Shown here: in pieces, positions 43,707 through 51,423 of the stretch | Layout of the letters: the number at the start of each line of letters is the position of its first letter | How positions within the stretch are numbered: position 1 is the first letter of the stretch | NCBI RefSeq assembly: GCF_003990975.1 | Contig: NZ_RZJR01000007.1 | Span: forward strand, 249,079-313,078 | Length of the DNA: 64,000 nt | Origin: Cohnella sp. AR92 | GTDB lineage: Bacteria; Bacillota; Bacilli; Paenibacillales; Paenibacillaceae | Direction: 5' to 3' | Notes under the pieces: model-generated | The model's input: the letters and a program-made list of their open reading frames with translations, nothing else | What the model was told of the DNA's origin: nothing | Databases searched by the model: none | Made by a program: the position numbers and the translations under genes

Positions 43707-44936
43707 TTATACCGGAATTCCGGCCGCTTTGCGAACCTCATTCGCCAGCCGATTGAACTCGTTCCTCGAGGCGTCGTCTGCCGCCGCGAACCAGGCGGCC
43801 GAGAGGAACCGGATGATTTTCTCCGCGTCGTCCTTGCTCATCGTGATCGCTCCTTCCTCCGTATTCCACCAGCCTTCGCCGCCGTAGGAGCGGTTCAGGT
43901 CCACCGAGACTCCTGCCACCGATGCGCCGTTCTTGTATTGATAGACGTTGGCGTGGCTGCTCTGCTTGCCTTGGCTCCAGGCATAGGTCTGCCAGAAGTG
44001 CTTGCAGGCGCCTCGTTTGTACATTTCTTCGATCACGGCATAAGAGGCGTACACGCCTGCTTCGTAGCCGGTAATCTGGGATGCCGCGGCCTTCAGGTAC
44101 GCTTCGATCGCGTTGTAATCCGCCGGCTGGGCGTCATAGTCGACCGCGAAGTAGATCGCGCTGCCCGCGGTCTGGGCGATGGCCTGGGCTTCCTTCAGCG
44201 CGGCGGCTCCGTCCGCTTGGCCGCTGGCGGCTCCGCCCTTCGCGCGGTCCGCCGTCGTCTCGAAGACGGAGATGATCTGCATGCCCGCGGCAGTGATCCC
44301 CTGCGCTTCGGTCAGCGTCAGCCGCTTCCAGGTGTATGTGGCCGGGACGAGATAGCGGGCCGCGAACTTGTATCCGGCCGCCGCAATCTGCTTCGCCGCG
44401 GACGCAGTCAGCGGGGTGGCGCAATCGATGCCCGGGGTAGGTGTCGTTGCCATAGGGGGCGTCTCTCCTTCCGATGCCGGCTGGGGCTTCACGGCATCAT
44501 ATTGATTCAGCTTATAGGTGTCCATAAGCGCGATAAGCTTGTCGGCATAGGCCGGATCCGTCGCGTAGCCGGCGGCCGCCGCCGCCTTCGCGGCGGACTT
44601 GCCGTCGGTGTTGAGCGCCTTCTTGTAGCGGTTGCCGCTTAACAGTCTAGAGTGGTCGGCGATCGACTCCTCCCAGCTGTGGTAGGCTCGGAACGCCGCT
44701 TGCACTTGAGCCGTGCGTCCGTCCTCATACTCCGTCGTCGCCATCGTTACGCTCCCGGCCGGGCCGGTCCCTTTGATGCCGAACAGGTTGTTGGCCTTCC
44801 GCGTCAGCCCGCTCCGCCCCCAGTTCGACTCCAGCGCAGCCTGCGCGATCGTCAGCGACGCTGGAACGCCGGTGCTCTTCTGGTCGGCGAGCACGGACGG
44901 AAGGATTTTCGTTATGAAGTCGTCATAGATGGACAT
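43707..44936 (-). CDS. Two-domain peptidoglycan lysin: glucosaminidase plus DUF1906 domain
   Basis: 409 residues without a signal peptide. Residues 1-150 are a FlgJ/LytG-type glucosaminidase (AQAALESNWG with catalytic Glu36, NNLFGIKG, YHSWEESIADHSRLL). After a Pro/Thr linker, residues about 165-365 are a DUF1906 glycoside-hydrolase-like TIM barrel (GIDCATPLTASAAKQIAAAG, YFAVDYDAQ, GVYASYAVIEEMY). The pairing is typical of phage endolysins and autolysins. G+C-rich like the core genome, unlike the region to its right. Confidence 0.9.
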   Translation of the reverse strand: MSIYDDFITKILPSVLADQKSTGVPASLTIAQAALESNWGRSGLTRKANNLFGIKGTGPAGSVTMATTEYEDGRTAQVQAAFRAYHSWEESIADHSRLLSGNRYKKALNTDGKSAAKAAAAAGYATDPAYADKLIALMDTYKLNQYDAVKPQPASEGETPPMATTPTPGIDCATPLTASAAKQIAAAGYKFAARYLVPATYTWKRLTLTEAQGITAAGMQIISVFETTADRAKGGAASGQADGAAALKEAQAIAQTAGSAIYFAVDYDAQPADYNAIEAYLKAAASQITGYEAGVYASYAVIEEMYKRGACKHFWQTYAWSQGKQSSHANVYQYKNGASVAGVSVDLNRSYGGEGWWNTEEGAITMSKDDAEKIIRFLSAAWFAAADDASRNEFNRLANEVRKAAGIPV

Positions 44937-45081: not shown

Positions 45082-45220
45082 TTCAAAGTTGTTTTTGATA
45101 GCCTATCTTACACTTTATTAGTAGAGCGGAAGAGATCTTTGCAAGAGGCACTGGATGACCTCTGGCAATGACATCCACTAGTCTAATGCTCTTTAAAACT
45201 GCTCAGGAAAGAGGGGGACT

Positions 45221-45571
45221 ATGCCTTCGTCGTGGATAGGCCACAAGATAGAGGTGTTTACCGACGATCTTTCTTCTATCGCGTATCAAGCACTTGCTCT
45301 ACTTAGAGAGTTCGATGTCCCTCACCTGGCTCGAAACGTAGTCCATGAGCCCGAAGCCCGGAAGGATTTCCAACTTCTAAGGCTGCGATTTGTCCCTTCC
45401 TTCATTATCGGGGGACACTGTTACGAGGGATATGACCCAAAGGAGCTCGGAATGCTCATTAAGAAGCACTTCGATATCGATATCCCGGAGGATCGCCTGT
45501 TTGTGGGAATTCAAGAGCACAAACCATGGCTATTCGAGTACTCAAAACCGTTTATCAGTATTTCAAAATAA
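45221..45571 (+). CDS. Glutaredoxin/thioredoxin-fold protein lacking the CxxC active site
   Basis: 116 residues. The pattern IEVFTDDLSSIAYQALALLREFDV, a helix, then RFVPSFIIGGHCYEGYDPKEL (cis-Pro segment and last helix) is that of a glutaredoxin fold. The position of CxxC is occupied by SSIA, so no redox dithiol is present; one Cys follows the cis-Pro strand. GGAAAGAGGGGG lies just before the ATG. First plus-strand gene of the A+T-rich region. A binding rather than a redox role is the likely inference. Confidence 0.7.
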   Translation: MPSSWIGHKIEVFTDDLSSIAYQALALLREFDVPHLARNVVHEPEARKDFQLLRLRFVPSFIIGGHCYEGYDPKELGMLIKKHFDIDIPEDRLFVGIQEHKPWLFEYSKPFISISK

Positions 45572-45591: not shown

Positions 45592-46212
45592 ATGGCCGTT
45601 GTATGTCCTAGCAGCAGCAGCTACCCAGCCAAACCAAGCTACAATGATTTCTGGAACTCTTATCACAGCCTTGCGGGCGATCTGGTTCCTTGGATCGGAA
45701 CCTCTATTTCTTTCATCCTAGTACACTGGTTCTCGGAATGGGGCATTCCGATTAACAACCCGGCATTCCAGACCTCAACCGAAGGTTATGCAAGCTCGCA
45801 AGGCAAGTGCGGCAACTTCCCCATCTTCGATACGCTTCAAGACGGAGCTTATGCCTATAAGGAGCTCATGGAGCGGCGTTATGTATTGCCTGCAACGGCA
45901 TACTCGAACATCTTTGGCGACAAGAACAACGTCAACGACGCATATATGAACGGGTTTGCCTCGGGTAAAACAGCAACAAACGTACTTACCGATAGCGGTA
46001 CGTACAAGTCGTCCGTGTCGTCGGTGCAGTTCAAAGGACGTTTGGAATCGGGCGGCACAATTACTTCGGGTACCTACGCGGCGAACGAAGCACTTGGAGC
46101 ATCCGCATGGAATGCCGGTCATTACATGCTGTCGACGGATACCTATCCGGGCGCTAAACTGAACCGTGTACTTGACTCTTCCGGTTGGGCTGCGAAGGAA
46201 GCAGCTTTGTAA
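45592..46212 (+). CDS. Peptidoglycan-hydrolase-like (glucosaminidase/lysozyme-type) protein
   Basis: 206 residues from ATG 45592, with GGGAGGAATT ahead. Residues 35-100 follow the glucosaminidase pattern: SFILVHWFSEWG with a candidate catalytic Glu49, INNPAF in place of NNLFGI, and FDTLQDGAYAYKELM. The remainder is unassigned. It has no signal peptide. It follows the glutaredoxin-like gene by 20 bases and is probably co-transcribed. The family match is distant. Confidence 0.55.
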   Translation: MAVVCPSSSSYPAKPSYNDFWNSYHSLAGDLVPWIGTSISFILVHWFSEWGIPINNPAFQTSTEGYASSQGKCGNFPIFDTLQDGAYAYKELMERRYVLPATAYSNIFGDKNNVNDAYMNGFASGKTATNVLTDSGTYKSSVSSVQFKGRLESGGTITSGTYAANEALGASAWNAGHYMLSTDTYPGAKLNRVLDSSGWAAKEAAL

Positions 46213-46303: not shown

Positions 46304-46516
46304 ATGCCAAATGAAAATTCTTATGGAAATCGCCTATTGTTCCTGCACGGCGAGCTATGTCGCGTTTCCCGGATGGTCACATTCTGTCATCCGGAAGATC
46401 AGGATTTATTTACTCAGGTCGGGCAGTTATTTGCAACTAGGCTAAAGGAGCTTCACAATGGCCGTCAACAGTCGTACTTGGATCTGATTTGCAAACCTGT
46501 CGTTTCCCACCAATAG
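46304..46516 (+). CDS. Small protein of unknown function
   Basis: 70 residues; ATG preceded by GAGGAGTGG. Probably helical (HPEDQDLFTQVGQLFATRLK) with two cysteines and no signal or membrane segment. A terminator follows at once. Family not recognised. Confidence 0.5.
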   Translation: MPNENSYGNRLLFLHGELCRVSRMVTFCHPEDQDLFTQVGQLFATRLKELHNGRQQSYLDLICKPVVSHQ

Positions 46517-46536: not shown

Positions 46537-46562
46537 GAGAAGCGGAACCCGCTTCTCTTTTT
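46537..46562. terminator. Terminator between convergent genes
   Basis: GAGAAGCGG (46537-46545) pairs with CCGCTTCTC (46549-46557), followed by TTTTT on the plus strand. Confidence 0.85.
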
Positions 46563-47172
46563 AATTTTCTATATTTGGGTCAATTAAGAAGGTCGTTAGT
46601 TCCAAATCCGTGACTTTATCATCAGTCAGGTTTAATATGAGCGCCGGGTAGAAGTATCCTTCATTCTCAGATGTACCCGTAATCCACATCGTGTAGGCAC
46701 CATTGTTCTGCGGTTGGCCTTGAACGGCATCCGGGTAGGCCTCGATCGCCTCATTCCTTGTACTTCCAACTCCAATATTATTTTGTGTTCTCATTTTAGA
46801 ACCGGAACTCACTATTATGGAGTCTACCCCCCTTGCATCGTCACTTTCTCCGGAGCGGTAGAAACTAATAGACATATCCAACTCATCATAGATCCACCAC
46901 ATATCCGGGCTTCCCCCGCCTCCATTCTGAGTGCTTGAAGGATCGCCAAGAACGCGCTTGACCTCATCTTGCGTGTCTCCGATGTGTACTCCTGCTATCG
47001 ATATGTTTTCTTTTGTTAAGGAACCTTGACCGGCTTCTTTTACGTTCTGTACGATTCTCTGATTGGCGCTTTCATTAGGACTTGCTTTATCTCCATCAGT
47101 CTCGCTACGGGTACATCCCGCAAGCAACAATCCAATTATGCTTGCCATAATAATCCCTTTTTTCAAATACAA
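46561..47172 (-). CDS. Lipoprotein of unknown function
   Basis: About 203 residues from a TTG at 47172 preceded by GAGGTGG, giving MYLKKGIIMASIIGLLLAGC with a clean lipobox; ATG 47148 would leave too short a leader, and the open frame to 47265 lacks a ribosome site. The mature part contains VHIGDTQDEVKRVLGDPSST and VGSTRNEAIEAYPDAVQG, two repeats of a small beta domain like those in SmpA/DUF4309-type lipoproteins. Function unknown. Confidence 0.7.
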   Translation of the reverse strand: MYLKKGIIMASIIGLLLAGCTRSETDGDKASPNESANQRIVQNVKEAGQGSLTKENISIAGVHIGDTQDEVKRVLGDPSSTQNGGGGSPDMWWIYDELDMSISFYRSGESDDARGVDSIIVSSGSKMRTQNNIGVGSTRNEAIEAYPDAVQGQPQNNGAYTMWITGTSENEGYFYPALILNLTDDKVTDLELTTFLIDPNIEN

Positions 47173-47286
47173 TCTATACCACCTCACAAATCTCAATATG
47201 TATATGGACTGCAGACGAATGGAAAAAGTTTCAAGCCATAAGTCATTTATTAAAGTGAGCGTCATTGATTAACTACGTTGTCTTTT

Positions 47287-47979
47287 CTAATTGACCTCTT
47301 GTAACGACAGTTCCCCCACCGTTAATGATTGATCTAACATTTGAAATTCGGCTTCTACAGTAGCCATGAAATTTCCAGGAGATACTTGGGCGGGCACTTC
47401 AGCTATCACTTGTTTATCCTCAATCCTATACCGGACAATATTGCCAAAGACAACGTCGTCAAACCATAAGCCCGCTTCCTTAACCCCGTATTCCTTAGTC
47501 AACGTTTTGCCTTTATAGGACAAGGAAAAACGATGTTTTCCATCGTTTATTTCGTGGCTCGACTTCACGCTGGAACGAACCGCTTGAACCGGGTCTTGTA
47601 CGGAAAACTCATAGTAGTCGTTCTTTAGGGCATGAAGCTCTGTTTTTTGTACTCCGGTTCCGTATCCCGACGTAAGCACGATAATGATCTCATTCTCCGG
47701 GCCGTTATCCATGTTTTCAACGTATATCTCGGGACTATAGGTTGGGTTTGCGACATTCTTCCAAGGGAACTTCTTTTCTTGGTTTCTTATTTTCACGGTC
47801 AAGCCTGTGAACATCTCCCCCGTTGCCTTGGTATCGGCAAGGATCTGAACGGATTTATCCTGGCTTTCAGATATAACCTGCTGCGTTGCTTCTGAACTTA
47901 TGGGTTCACTGGTTGCAGAGGAATTAGAACATCCCGCCATGAGAAAGCATAAACCGATCACGCTTAAATACTTCTTCAT
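47287..47979 (-). CDS. Lipoprotein of unknown function
   Basis: 230 residues with a good signal peptide and lipobox MAGC (Cys17), then a Ser/Glu-rich linker. A beta-rich domain follows (SPEIYVENMDNGPENEIIIV). There is no family I can name with confidence. Its A+T-rich codon use matches its neighbours. It is separated from rsoA upstream by a strong terminator, so it must have its own promoter, which I did not find. Confidence 0.7.
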   Translation of the reverse strand: MKKYLSVIGLCFLMAGCSNSSATSEPISSEATQQVISESQDKSVQILADTKATGEMFTGLTVKIRNQEKKFPWKNVANPTYSPEIYVENMDNGPENEIIIVLTSGYGTGVQKTELHALKNDYYEFSVQDPVQAVRSSVKSSHEINDGKHRFSLSYKGKTLTKEYGVKEAGLWFDDVVFGNIVRYRIEDKQVIAEVPAQVSPGNFMATVEAEFQMLDQSLTVGELSLQEVN

Positions 47980-48108: not shown

Positions 48109-48351
48109 TTAGAAAGAGTCACTAAGATTGCGGCAGAAAGAGGTGAAGTCTGGATTCTTCGACATGTCGTAACCTTGTACTTTGTTGATAATCCTCTCGA
48201 TAATAGATTGTTCAAGATCATCCTGCCGATCTTGTTTCATCTTGTATTTTGCGCTTCTAATAACCGGCATAAACATGGACAAGATGCTTTGCATGGCCTC
48301 TTTGTCACCGTCTTGCGCTTTTTGCACGAGCTCGTACAGGTCATTTTCCAT
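48109..48351 (-). CDS. rsoA: Co-sigma factor, RsoA-like (region 2 half of a split sigma factor)
   Basis: 80 residues, close to the 79 of Bacillus subtilis RsoA. The helical sequence ENDLYELVQKAQDGDKEAMQ and RQDDLEQSIIERIINKVQGY has the helix-rich layout of sigma region 2 (core RNA polymerase and -10 contacts) without region 4. Its start overlaps the yvrJ stop. In B. subtilis RsoA works with SigO as a two-part sigma factor. The call rests on size, layout and the adjoining sigO-like and yvrJ-like genes. Confidence 0.75.
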   Translation of the reverse strand: MENDLYELVQKAQDGDKEAMQSILSMFMPVIRSAKYKMKQDRQDDLEQSIIERIINKVQGYDMSKNPDFTSFCRNLSDSF

Positions 48352-48532
48352 GGCTATCCTCGCTTGAATTCTTTTTTATTACTTCCGTCAACCTGAGAAT
48401 GCTCTCGGTCAGCGTTTCGAGTTTTTTCTCAAACCGGATAAGCAGGTATCCCGTTAAGACAATGGGAAACCCAACCTGACTGACCGCGGTAAGCAAATAG
48501 GTAAGGGTCTGGCTCTCTTCCAAACTCGTCAC
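48341..48532 (-). CDS. yvrJ: YvrJ-family small membrane protein
   Basis: 63 residues from a GTG at 48532 whose GTGA overlaps the sigO stop. One membrane helix (LLTAVSQVGFPIVLTGYLLIRF) is followed by a charged cytoplasmic helix (EKKLETLTESILRLTEVIKK). The VGFPI-xxxYLL pattern is that of the YvrJ family, which in B. subtilis is linked to the SigO locus. Function unknown; an anti-sigma or holin-like role has no direct support. Confidence 0.8.
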   Translation of the reverse strand: MTSLEESQTLTYLLTAVSQVGFPIVLTGYLLIRFEKKLETLTESILRLTEVIKKNSSEDSHGK

Positions 48533-49134
48533 CCCCTCTCTATCAAGGCAAGTCGCAGTTTCTTCAAGGCTAAGTTCCTTGTTTTGCTCACGGCCTGCGG
48601 GGATACTCCAATCATTCGTGCGATTTCGTTATCCTGGTAACACAAGGAGTAATAGAGAGTGGCGATATGCTGTTGTTTAGGGGAGAGGATAGCGAAGGCA
48701 CGTGAAAGGCTCTCGTTTGAGAAGGAGACTTTAAATTGATCGGGGTCTGCTAGAATGGCCTCCGACTCCGATTGAATTTGCTTGGATAATTGTCTTTCTC
48801 CCAGAGTCTCCCCGCCATCCCCCTCTGCTGAGGAGGGGCGATCGAAAATCAATGGATATCGATTATCATTCTTTCGATGTTGACGTTGCTGATCGATTGT
48901 ACAGAATTTAATAGTGGAGACAAGATACTTGACGAATCGAATTCTAAAAAAGTGTTTGCGGAATCGGTCATCGAGTTCCTTTCTGCCTTCTTCTTCCCCA
49001 TCGAGAGCTCTTAATAGAAGTACGACATGCCGATCCGTTAGAAAAAAATCTCGAATAACGCGATCCGAATATACAAGTCGGTTCTCTTCGCAGTGTCGTT
49101 GGAATCTTTCTCTCTGAACTGGAGTAAGTGCCAT
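48529..49134 (-). CDS. sigO: Sigma-70-type factor, SigO-like (region 4 half of a split sigma factor)
   Basis: 201 residues. The C-terminal 60 residues are a region 4 helix-turn-helix (LSPKQQHIATLYYSLCYQDN, then EIARMIGVSPQAVSKT). The N-terminal half has no clear region 2. A long polar segment lies in the middle. GGGGGG precedes the ATG. It is coupled to yvrJ and rsoA, the combination that in B. subtilis yields a SigO-RsoA holoenzyme. A UviA/TcdR-type single sigma factor is the alternative, but the rsoA-like partner speaks against it. Confidence 0.78.
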   Translation of the reverse strand: MALTPVQRERFQRHCEENRLVYSDRVIRDFFLTDRHVVLLLRALDGEEEGRKELDDRFRKHFFRIRFVKYLVSTIKFCTIDQQRQHRKNDNRYPLIFDRPSSAEGDGGETLGERQLSKQIQSESEAILADPDQFKVSFSNESLSRAFAILSPKQQHIATLYYSLCYQDNEIARMIGVSPQAVSKTRNLALKKLRLALIERG

Positions 49135-49206
49135 TTACATCCCCCCTTAGCCTCGTAGAATGCATCTATCCTAAAAGTGGAAATAAACTGCAATAAAACA
49201 ACCAAC

Positions 49207-49223
49207 TTTACCATTTTGGTAAA
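49207..49223. promoter_or_regulatory. Palindromic operator 1 in the sigO leader
   Basis: TTTACCA-TTT-TGGTAAA, a perfect inverted repeat, about 73 bases before the sigO start and 72 downstream of its -10. Confidence 0.75.
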
Positions 49224-49294
49224 ATAACTAAACGACTTCTCTCCCAATCGTTAAGATCCCCCAAATTTTTTCCAAGATCTCGCCATAATAGGAT

Positions 49295-49322
49295 AGTATA
49301 TTACCATTATGGCAAGTGTCAA
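49295..49322 (-). promoter_or_regulatory. SigA promoter of sigO-yvrJ-rsoA with operator 2 filling the spacer
   Basis: On the minus strand TTGACA (49322-49317), 16 bases, TATACT (49300-49295). The spacer is occupied exactly by ATTACCA-TTA-TGGCAAG (49300-49316), a close copy of operators 1 and 3. A bound repressor would exclude RNA polymerase. Confidence 0.8.
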
Positions 49323-49375
49323 CCCGAATTAAGCTACATAAATCAGGTCGTTTGCCAAATCGGAAATCACCTAGA

Positions 49376-50194
49376 CTATCCTTGCTGCCGCTCTGTTACA
49401 TAGAAAGAAACGTTATCAACCTTCCAGTCGCGACCATCGAAAAGAAAAGTCACTTGCCGATGAAGGACTTTGCCCGGCTCGGTGTATTCGGGGTGGAGAT
49501 CGCCTTCGGACGACTCCAGGTAGATTGCGGTTTTCTCATCCTTGTACGCGACGTTCCCTAGCCGAATGGAATTGACGATCCTCACGTTATACGCTAGTCC
49601 TTTGCTAGAAGACAACGACTGGATCATTTTATCCGTAAAATAAGAGCTGAAGGTGGTCTTAACGTTCTTTATGGACGCCAGATTGGTCGCTTCGTTCACT
49701 TTACTAATCATGTCGGTAAGCTGCTGTTCCGTGATTTTCTTGAGAATCTGCGGGGCTGGCTTCTCCGGGATGATTCGGATCTGCTTGCCGTCGAGAGAGA
49801 CGGTAGCCGATTGGGCGGCCTGGCTCCATTCCACCTCCGCCCCCATTACCTGGCTGACGAATCGCAACGGCACGAAGGTCCGGCTATTCTCCAGGTACGC
49901 AGGCACGTCGATCTGAACCTCTTTTTGATTGACATAAACAATCTTCGAATCGACCTTGAGGACGATGACGACATCCCCTTTGATAATCGTGATGTCTTTG
50001 GACTTCGAATCCCATGCGACCTCGGCTCCCATCTTCTCCGATACGGAACGCAGGGGGATAAGCATCCGATTCTCCTTGAGCTTTCCTTCCACTGCAGGAT
50101 CTGCCTCGTCCGCATAAGCGGAGGCAGATAATAAGGGCGCACTCCACAGCGCGGTGCCTAATAATAGGACAAGCATTCCGTTCGTTCGGATCAT
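49376..50194 (-). CDS. Secreted stalk-domain (copper-amine-oxidase-N-like) protein
   Basis: 272 residues with a signal peptide ending ASAYA. Two stalk-domain repeats are visible: MLIPLRSVSEKMGAEVAWDS and TFVPLRFVSQVMGAEVEWSQ. The C-terminal about 120 residues are an unassigned domain (ISKVNEATNLASIKNVKTTF). It is divergent from the XRE gene, with operator 3 in the shared 142-base gap, so it could be regulated by the same repressor. It is unlike the longer stalk protein at 28389 in its C-terminal half. Confidence 0.85.
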   Translation of the reverse strand: MIRTNGMLVLLLGTALWSAPLLSASAYADEADPAVEGKLKENRMLIPLRSVSEKMGAEVAWDSKSKDITIIKGDVVIVLKVDSKIVYVNQKEVQIDVPAYLENSRTFVPLRFVSQVMGAEVEWSQAAQSATVSLDGKQIRIIPEKPAPQILKKITEQQLTDMISKVNEATNLASIKNVKTTFSSYFTDKMIQSLSSSKGLAYNVRIVNSIRLGNVAYKDEKTAIYLESSEGDLHPEYTEPGKVLHRQVTFLFDGRDWKVDNVSFYVTERQQG

Positions 50195-50270
50195 GCATAG
50201 ACCTCCCTATTCCTTTTCAGAATAAGACTCCATTTATAGGAAAATGTTGCAACAGGGGATCTGAAACCAT

Positions 50271-50300
50271 TTTACCAATATGGAAAACATGTGCTATACT
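50271..50300 (+). promoter_or_regulatory. Promoter of the XRE gene overlapped by operator 3
   Basis: TTACCA (-35, 50272-50277), 17 bases, and extended -10 TGCTATACT (TATACT at 50295-50300). TTTACCA-ATA-TGGAAAA (50271-50287) covers the -35. This layout suggests negative autoregulation. Confidence 0.7.
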
Positions 50301-50336
50301 GAATCCATCCAATTCCGGAGTAAAGGAAGATTCTCT

Positions 50337-50729
50337 ATGACATTGGGCAAGAGATTAAGAGAACGGCGAGAACGCTTCGGCAAGACGCAGCTGGATGCCG
50401 CGAGAGAGCTGGGGATCAGCAACGTCCAGCTGTCCCGGTACGAATCGGACGACCGCAAGCCGGAGCCCGAGATGCTGAGCCGGTTCGCCGAATATTACCG
50501 GACGACGACCGACTACCTGCTGGGCCGGACGGAAGACACCACGCTGGGAAGCGGAAGCTCCGCCAACCTAGCCGAGTTCGAACGCTTCATCAATAACCCG
50601 GAGCACGGCGTTTTTTTCAAAGAATATCTGAATGCCCCCGAAGAGAGAAAAGAAGAGATGCTGAGATTCTGGGAGTTTATTCGAGAGAAAGAACGGAATC
50701 GCCGGCCTGGCGACCGCCAAGGAGAGTAA
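50337..50729 (+). CDS. XRE-family repressor (ImmR-like)
   Basis: 130 residues from ATG 50337 (AAAGGAA ahead). Residues 2-58 are a standard Cro/C1 helix-turn-helix (GKRLRERRERFGKTQLDAAR, then SNVQLSRYESDDRKPEPEML) ending in DYLLGRT, as in ImmR-like repressors. The C-terminal half is helical and may dimerise or be the protease target. The next gene encodes an ImmA protease, the usual partner. It probably binds the TTTACCA-N3-TGGTAAA palindromes (inference from position). Confidence 0.88.
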   Translation: MTLGKRLRERRERFGKTQLDAARELGISNVQLSRYESDDRKPEPEMLSRFAEYYRTTTDYLLGRTEDTTLGSGSSANLAEFERFINNPEHGVFFKEYLNAPEERKEEMLRFWEFIREKERNRRPGDRQGE

Positions 50730-50832
50730 ACAAATCGCCCGATCTGTATTATGATAAGTGGAGCACGCCCGAAGGGGCGTTCCTTTTTACCCATTAATGC
50801 GAACATACATTCCCGTAAAATGAGGTGCAGCT

Positions 50833-51423
50833 ATGCTTCGATACGATATGACGACTCCGATGGAGCAGTGGATCGAGAACCTGTGGAGGAGAGCCGGAAT
50901 CCTGTCGCCCGCCCAGCTTAACGTCGATGAGGTGGCGAACCGCCTCAATGTCTGGGTTCATTACCTGAACCAGTCCAGCAAGGCGCTGGAATGGATGGGG
51001 ATGCGCTCGATCTTGCTGGACCGCAGGCTGAGCCGGGTCGAGCAATGGGAGGACTTCCTGCACGAGCTGTGCCACGTGCTGAGGCATGCGGGCAGCCAGA
51101 CGCTGATGCCCCAGGCGTTCCTGGAGCATCAGGAGGCGGACGCGAACCGCTTCGTCCTGTACGCGGCCGTCCCTTCCTTCATGCTGCAGGGCGTTCGCCT
51201 GCCCGAGCGCCAGAGCGAAGCCGCCGATTGGATCGCTTCTCACTTCGGGGTGACCCATACGCTTGCCTATCAGCGGCTGGAGCAGATCCAACGCCGCACG
51301 TTCGAAGCCATTCTGTGGGAGGAACTGGAGAAGCTCGAAGGGAGCAGGGGCGGCCGACCGTCGCGGAGCCGGTCCGGCGGAGATGCGCTATCCGCGTCCT
51401 TGGCCGAAGTTTTCGCGCTTTAG
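50833..51423 (+). CDS. ImmA/IrrE-family metallo-endopeptidase
   Basis: 196 residues. The zinc motif HELCH (77-81) and the downstream EHQEADANRF (third ligand Glu) define the ImmA/IrrE family. Such proteases cleave a cognate XRE repressor to relieve repression, as ImmA does to ImmR in ICEBs1 and as IrrE does to DdrO. The gene is 103 bases after the XRE gene. The C-terminal 30 residues are low-complexity (GGRPSRSRSGGD). Confidence 0.9.
   Translation: MLRYDMTTPMEQWIENLWRRAGILSPAQLNVDEVANRLNVWVHYLNQSSKALEWMGMRSILLDRRLSRVEQWEDFLHELCHVLRHAGSQTLMPQAFLEHQEADANRFVLYAAVPSFMLQGVRLPERQSEAADWIASHFGVTHTLAYQRLEQIQRRTFEAILWEELEKLEGSRGGRPSRSRSGGDALSASLAEVFAL

Follow-up and report, generated by a model that had tools for sequence, protein, structure and literature searches.

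A DNA-damage switch of an old phage-tail element appears to be rewired onto a two-piece sigma factor in Cohnella sp. AR92

Bacillus subtilis has a sigma factor split over two proteins, SigO and RsoA. A related pair is encoded in a 64,000-nt stretch of the genome of Cohnella sp. AR92 (hereafter the window; positions are counted from its first letter) as the operon sigO-yvrJ-rsoA, next to divergent genes for an XRE-type repressor and an ImmA-type protease. Comparison with other genomes of the order Paenibacillales suggests that an SOS-triggered relay probably drives this operon and that it derives from the control sequences of a PBSX-like tail element that has since been lost. The damage response of this old element appears to have been redirected to a two-piece sigma factor, which itself seems to activate the gene for a wall-cutting enzyme. 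The gene content, the conservation of operators and promoters, the LexA-like boxes and the motif sites described below were observed directly in the DNA. The central features are:

48109..48351, minus strand: RsoA-like protein, 80 aa, first part of sigma region 2 (HTH_16, 2.7e-10)
48341..48532, minus strand: YvrJ, small holin-like membrane protein (PF12841, 1.1e-16; phrog_4898 holin, 4.9e-7)
48529..49134, minus strand: SigO-like protein, 201 aa, end of sigma region 2 plus region 4 (TIGR02937, 1e-14)
49174..49203, minus strand: P2, SigO-type autopromoter GGTTG-N19-CACTTT (26.1 bits, matrix built without this locus)
49207..49223: XRE operator 93 bp downstream of the P1 operator, 0 mismatches to the pattern of the initial annotation, 3 bp before the SigO-type -35
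49295..49322, minus strand: P1, SigA-type promoter TTGACA-N16-TATACT for sigO-yvrJ-rsoA (11/12 consensus positions)
49300..49316: XRE operator filling the P1 spacer, palindrome with 1 mismatch to that pattern
50271..50287: XRE operator over the XRE -35, palindrome with 1 mismatch
50337..50729, plus strand: XRE repressor, 130 aa (HTH_3, 1.9e-14)
50800..50812: LexA-like box CGAACATACATTC before immA
50833..51423, plus strand: ImmA-type M78 protease with HELCH motif (Peptidase_M78, PF06114, 8.8e-11)

The overlap of the three operon genes on the minus strand, which the initial annotation had described, amounts to 4 bases between sigO and yvrJ and 11 bases between yvrJ and rsoA. On the sigma70-ECF profile the SigO-like protein covers positions 34-165 (E 1e-14) and the RsoA-like protein positions 2-54 (E 0.012); the Sigma70_r4 match of the former (9.4e-5) falls under the cut-off of that family. 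Sigma region 4 and region 2 are therefore split over separate adjacent genes, which is the arrangement that marks the SigO-RsoA type of two-subunit sigma factor. The divergent XRE gene and the ImmA protease beside this operon, also noted earlier, are borne out by their domain matches (HTH_3 and Peptidase_M78), and the gene for the HExxH protease lies directly 3' of the XRE gene, as in an ImmR-ImmA pair.

The three palindromes and the TTGACA/TATACT promoter indeed lie where the initial annotation had placed them, with the copy at 49300 in the promoter spacer and the copy at 50271 over the XRE -35. Counting such palindromes says little: with up to 3 mismatches the window contains 11 matches compared with 6.3 expected, and because 7 of 100 shuffles reach 11 matches, the loose pattern alone is not significant. 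This count was dropped as support and conservation was used instead. Scanning the whole genome with TTWACCANNNTGGYAAR at 0-1 mismatch returned six places outside the locus: C6:31435 (0 mismatches), C3:12274, C5:209169, C12:109418, C30:51769 and C33:401643. Five of these fall within reading frames; the exception, C30:51769, is not palindromic, overlaps the 3' end of a frame and is not wholly inside any frame of at least 60 aa. When up to 2 mismatches were allowed, the genome gave counts of 60 and 60, lower than the 80 and 69 of a reversed-pattern control.

The case for the operators is made by the genus. Of 36 other Cohnella genomes, 30 have an XRE ortholog; one of these 30 returned no locus, and the comparison comprises 30 loci (29 ortholog genomes plus this genome). 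All 30 carry ImmA behind XRE, and all 30 contain palindromes of the form TTTRCCA-N3-TGGYAAA (up to 2 mismatches) upstream of XRE (shuffle mean 0.33 loci, maximum 1). The exact operator pattern TTTRCCANNNTGGYAAA was found in this region at 34 sites in 27 of the 30 loci, compared with 0 in 30 rounds of shuffling, and an operator with up to 2 mismatches sits at -70 to -56 of XRE in 25. A TTGAC promoter on the facing strand with an operator in its spacer is present in 26 loci, this one included, and was not found in the remaining four (L065, L066, L067, L068). The next operator follows 93 bp on at the present locus and 94-97 bp on in L052, L053, L054, L055, L057 and L071. Operators in 30 of 30 loci and an operator-filled spacer in 26 of 30 argue well that XRE controls the sigO operon and that ImmA is the trigger, as had been proposed from the window alone.

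The same comparison points to where this switch may come from. The gene facing XRE is an Xpf-type phage sigma factor in 26 of the 30 loci. The one Cohnella Xpf that was typed matches phrog_1190 (7.8e-40); 17 phage records match it, labelled either sigma factor or, for PBP180 among others, positive control sigma-like factor, and a Cohnella Xpf is 40% identical to the protein of PBP180. A tail cluster is found in 12 of 16 longer Cohnella regions, as judged by likeness to region L093, six of whose proteins were typed: five belong to tail families, among them baseplate wedge, tape measure and tail fibre, and the sixth has no match. Three loci contain a small holin-like gene and an endolysin instead, the former being BhlA in L065, a relative of XhlA (45%) in L066 and a relative of YvrJ (55%) in L071. 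At the same chromosomal place, L087, L089 and L090 (Cohnella G029, G001 and G003) show a holin-like gene facing XRE followed by an endolysin and no tail genes, which makes them isolated lysis cassettes. The AR92 genome has no xpf ortholog, the single weak match being 35% identical over 79 aa (E 4e-5). The site has no tail genes either, and it retains the flanking genes and an endolysin:

43707..44936, minus strand: endolysin with Glucosaminidase and Rv2525c-like parts

This gene is a probable remnant of the lysis genes of the tail element. Of the parts of a PBSX-type element, the Xre protein, the M78 protease and the divergent operator-controlled promoter are present here; the Xpf-type activator and the tail cluster are absent. 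By this comparison the switch is best read as an inheritance from a PBSX-like tail element that is not specific to sigO, with sigO-yvrJ-rsoA as the present occupant of the element's old promoter.

One gene separates the two halves of this control region and is absent from the description of the locus in the initial annotation:

49376..50194, minus strand: Cu_amine_oxidN1 protein, between P1 and the XRE promoter

It is apparently an insertion, and the distance between the operators on the P1 side and on the XRE side is 971 bp here compared with about 50 bp in many orthologs. The XRE-ImmA pair could then be a leftover of the tail element that regulates only itself, with sigO lying there by chance and transcribed from P2 or by readthrough from the Cu_amine_oxidN1 gene. 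The other functions of the tail element are indeed gone here, and 0.9 kb with a gene separate the XRE operator from P1. Nevertheless, we consider a chance landing unlikely, since P1 still has both its -35 and its -10 along with the operator, and a second operator, this one exact, is kept at the inherited spacing. This second operator (49207-49223) ends 3 nt before the GGTTG of P2 and abuts this SigO-type promoter in the place where relatives have a LexA box.

Those relatives were collected across the order, where SigO matches at 1e-10 occur in 91 of 392 genomes, some of them partial. We examined 75 loci from the stronger matches, this one included (58 first and 17 later, three of the 75 stemming from a genus-directed search). 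The highest SigO identity to the present locus, 64-65%, is found in a genome of the same genus (G028). An exact GAACN4GTTC box lies between -300 and +110 of the longest SigO start in 34 of the first 58 loci (shuffle mean 0.21, maximum 2) and in 40 of all 75; this range holds no exact LexA box at the sigO of AR92. The strict motif GGTTG-N19-[CA]ACTTT was found in 22 of the 75 loci, this one included (shuffles 0.04, maximum 1), and a looser search that allowed spacers of 18-20 returned 23 loci, all with a spacer of 19. With a matrix built from 19 loci, 56 of the 75 SigO regions exceed 9 bits. Above 17 bits the matrix marks 100 sites in the 1.07 million bases of the 75 loci and 0 in each of three shuffles; 42 of the 100 precede SigO itself. 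Box and site are both present in 32 loci, and in 22 of these the box lies exactly 7 nt before GGTTG. The SigO promoters of L185, L187 and L188 have no LexA box and a kept stretch, AGGACTAATGGTT, in its place, through which a different regulator may be wired in. Searching 50,697 phage records for SigO returned no match at E 1e-3.

A LexA-like sequence is also found within the switch. The 13-mer CGAACATACATTC or a variant differing in 1-2 bases precedes immA in all 30 Cohnella loci (shuffle mean 0.39 loci, maximum 2), and it resembles the boxes that precede lexA in this genome. In PBSX, LexA governs a comparable gene. The conservation of this box before immA points to DNA damage, that is, the SOS response, as the likely signal for the switch. 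Similar boxes lie about 10-30 bases before genes at L109 (C6:292129 of the same genome) and L120 (C12:159038) that look like IS1595-type transposases. Alternatively, ImmA could answer to another of its signals (a peptide-quorum regulator, redox or metal sensing), with the LexA-like box serving another reader. One half of the box is imperfect, and the part of PMC11841131 that we consulted describes RapI as also switching the ImmA of ICEBs1. Such a non-damage trigger seems improbable to us, given that the 13-mer and its close variants are kept in 30 of 30 loci and that exact LexA boxes occur at the SigO operons of relatives. The reading of a signal-gated protease thus changes in its particulars: the switch would be inherited from a tail element, the signal is likely SOS, and the palindrome at 49207 stands beside a SigO-type autopromoter.

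We then asked which genes this sigma factor may serve. Applied to the 64-kb window, the matrix returns only two sites above 6 bits, P2 at 49203 (26.1) and a second one at 45087 (25.2), which precedes two predicted target genes:

45087..45116, plus strand: second SigO-type promoter AGTTG-N19-CACTTT (25.2 bits)
45221..45571, plus strand: predicted SigO target, 116 aa, glutaredoxin-like by eye (no Pfam match at 0.01)
45592..46212, plus strand: predicted SigO target, lysozyme/glucosaminidase-like, no signal peptide by eye

Relatives of both products (57% for 45221 and about 55% for 45592) sit behind a 25.0-bit site in L194, directly after its rsoA, and L194 is outside the training set of the matrix. 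A profile of the 45592 product aligned to the glucosaminidase-like targets of other loci with an hhalign probability of 69.9% (E 4e-5). The matrix found only the known site in 225,570 further bases of this genome, which partly overlap the window. Two more exact GGTTG-N19-CACTTW places in the genome were rejected at 0.3 and -5.0 bits.

The genes behind SigO-type sites in relatives were scanned with Pfam as a set of 46 proteins, namely 44 of 53 downstream frames (at least 60 aa) and two further window proteins; nine frames, one of them doubtful and the others from near-duplicate loci, were left out. The matches include wall-enzyme families: Amidase_3 (5), Glucosaminidase (4), Peptidase_C39_2 (3), GH46 (3), Hydrolase_2 (2), a lytic transglycolase domain (1) and a peptidoglycan-binding domain (1), next to glutaredoxin (2), where one protein may count in several rows. 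Phospholipase A2 families are matched by 3 genes of the set, and the remaining proteins are a sugar kinase, a transposase or without a match. In B. subtilis, SigO-RsoA has an acid or oxalate role. Such a function with oxdC-like targets is very unlikely here: the family is the same and the promoter geometry of Bacillus-type loci similar, but no oxdC was found among the scanned window genes beside the operon and wall-hydrolase families stand behind the SigO-type sites of relatives.

Three further features lie between these targets and the operon, one of them a gene that may form a separate transcription unit, and a terminator-like hairpin separates XRE from immA:

46304..46516, plus strand: small protein with a CHPED motif, of a family recurring at SigO loci, hairpin-like sequence before it
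46561..47979, minus strand: two lipoproteins with relatives at other SigO loci
50765..50780, plus strand: terminator-like hairpin in the XRE/immA intergenic region

Relatives of the lipoproteins were seen at the SigO loci L187, L188, L193, L194, L197 and L212, some beside lysin-like genes, and such proteins might serve in immunity or as inhibitors. Inspection by eye had suggested that the SigO promoter is shared by the lipoprotein gene at 47979, an idea that was dropped, as no site above 6 bits lies there.

Pairing of sigO with XRE-ImmA recurs elsewhere. A divergent XRE-ImmA pair beside SigO was found in four of the first 58 loci (this one, L182, L189 and L206), and the genus-directed search added L227 and L229. 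The five loci besides this one speak against the possibility, raised with the initial annotation, that homologous sigO loci never sit beside XRE-ImmA. L182, L227 and L229 belong to the same genus as L189, and L206 comes from a different genus within the family. Of 51 genomes of L189's genus, 26 have an XRE ortholog, each time followed by ImmA. Facing it is a phage-activator-like gene in 16 cases (two typed with Pfam and PHROGs, the others judged by eye from sequence likeness), a holin-like gene in 5 (of which two were typed) and SigO in 4; one case is unclear. Four of 11 longer regions in this genus were viewed: two activator regions hold tail genes (tail sheath, tape measure and baseplate in the one that was typed), and by eye the holin region and the SigO region hold none. 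The slot would on this evidence have held three kinds of output in two genera. On a quick SigO tree of 75 rows, with many weak branches, the XRE-ImmA link requires at least 5 changes. The promoter towards SigO in L182 and L189 (TTGACG-N17) carries GGTAATTAAAATACC in its spacer by eye, an operator-like palindrome of the local XRE; the layout is equal and the repressor another.

How might this relay work? Binding, cleavage, sigma activity and lysis or release are the steps that we infer from the arrangement of sites and genes. At rest, XRE on the three operators would repress its own promoter and P1, and probably P2 as well. DNA damage would relieve LexA repression at immA and possibly also activate ImmA directly, whereupon ImmA would cut XRE. 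P1 would then produce SigO, YvrJ and RsoA. Together with core polymerase, SigO-RsoA would fire P2 in a positive feedback and the promoter at 45087, which leads to the lysozyme-like enzyme. YvrJ is a possible holin for this enzyme.

Several observations weigh against this relay or parts of it. In Cohnella the pairing is confined to one genome, and three other SigO-bearing Cohnella genomes have no XRE or ImmA nearby (one of these three matches lies on a 5 kb contig). The next operator lies 99-137 bp on in other Cohnella loci, and in 7 of the 26 loci with a filled spacer the scanned range shows no second one. The imperfect half of the LexA-like box before immA reads ATTC. The instances for the matrix were chosen with a pattern that holds both boxes, and 19 of the 75 SigO regions score below 9 bits. 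The RsoA-like protein reaches 19 bits against the curated RsoA equivalog NF041489, which has a cut-off of 100, and a search of this genome with that model gave no match at 1e-12. The GGTTG motif itself is absent in the loci that exceed this cut-off (G593, G661 and G456, presumably Bacillus). By eye and without a shuffle control, the regions upstream of sigO, yvrJ and oxdC in these genomes show GTT(T/G)AC-N17/18-CA(C/T)TT, in which the distance from GTT to CACTT equals that of the Paenibacillales motif within one base. These three genes are named as SigO targets in the consulted part of PMC8103513. Finally, the 45592 product has no Pfam match, and its single-sequence structure model failed (predicted local distance difference test, pLDDT, of 30).

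We propose only tentatively a role for SigO-YvrJ-RsoA across the Paenibacillales, namely that it may be a damage-inducible, self-amplifying split sigma factor that makes and releases wall-cutting enzymes in a lysis or bacteriolysin programme, and that it may repeatedly have taken over the XRE-ImmA switch from tail elements in decay, in place of their phage-type activator. For SigO-RsoA the comparison names DNA damage as the likely signal, offers a promoter motif and suggests wall hydrolases as candidate targets, all of which is directly testable. It would also describe a phage-derived switch that keeps its operators while the output gene is exchanged, in two genera. Among the matches listed in the open-access literature (titles and abstract openings), SigO-RsoA under XRE-ImmA or LexA is not described, which is no proof of its being unpublished, and neither a wall-hydrolase regulon for SigO-RsoA nor a role across the order appears.

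With SigO-RsoA of B. subtilis the system shares the sigma-4 and sigma-2 parts on two small proteins, the nearby YvrJ and, by eye, the GTT-to-CACTT distance of Bacillus-type loci within one base. It differs in forming one operon with yvrJ in the middle, in its putative SOS-type control, in the wall-hydrolase neighbours of relatives and in an RsoA-like part below the curated cut-off; oxdC-yvrL is not among the scanned neighbours of the operon, the rest of the genome not having been searched for oxdC. PBSX-type elements have the same repressor-protease pair and divergent promoter, and the chromosomal place is that of the Cohnella Xpf elements, but at the present locus what follows the divergent promoter is a split sigma factor, with neither an xpf ortholog nor tail genes. 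UviA of Clostridium perfringens is a one-piece sigma factor of another group. The UviA-UviB-Bcn5 module combines a sigma factor, a small BhlA-type holin, an amidase and a signal-peptide-less bacteriocin, according to the part of PMC9527704 that we consulted. YvrJ beside the sigma gene matches a phage holin family (4.9e-7), a likeness of parts for which we claim no shared ancestry. SigN (ZpdN) of pBS32 in B. subtilis, as presented in the consulted part of PMC6751061, is a damage-induced sigma factor with a repressed SigA promoter and an autopromoter. In contrast to the relay proposed here, in which XRE with ImmA would stand between LexA and a two-piece sigma factor, SigN is a single protein and directly repressed by LexA.

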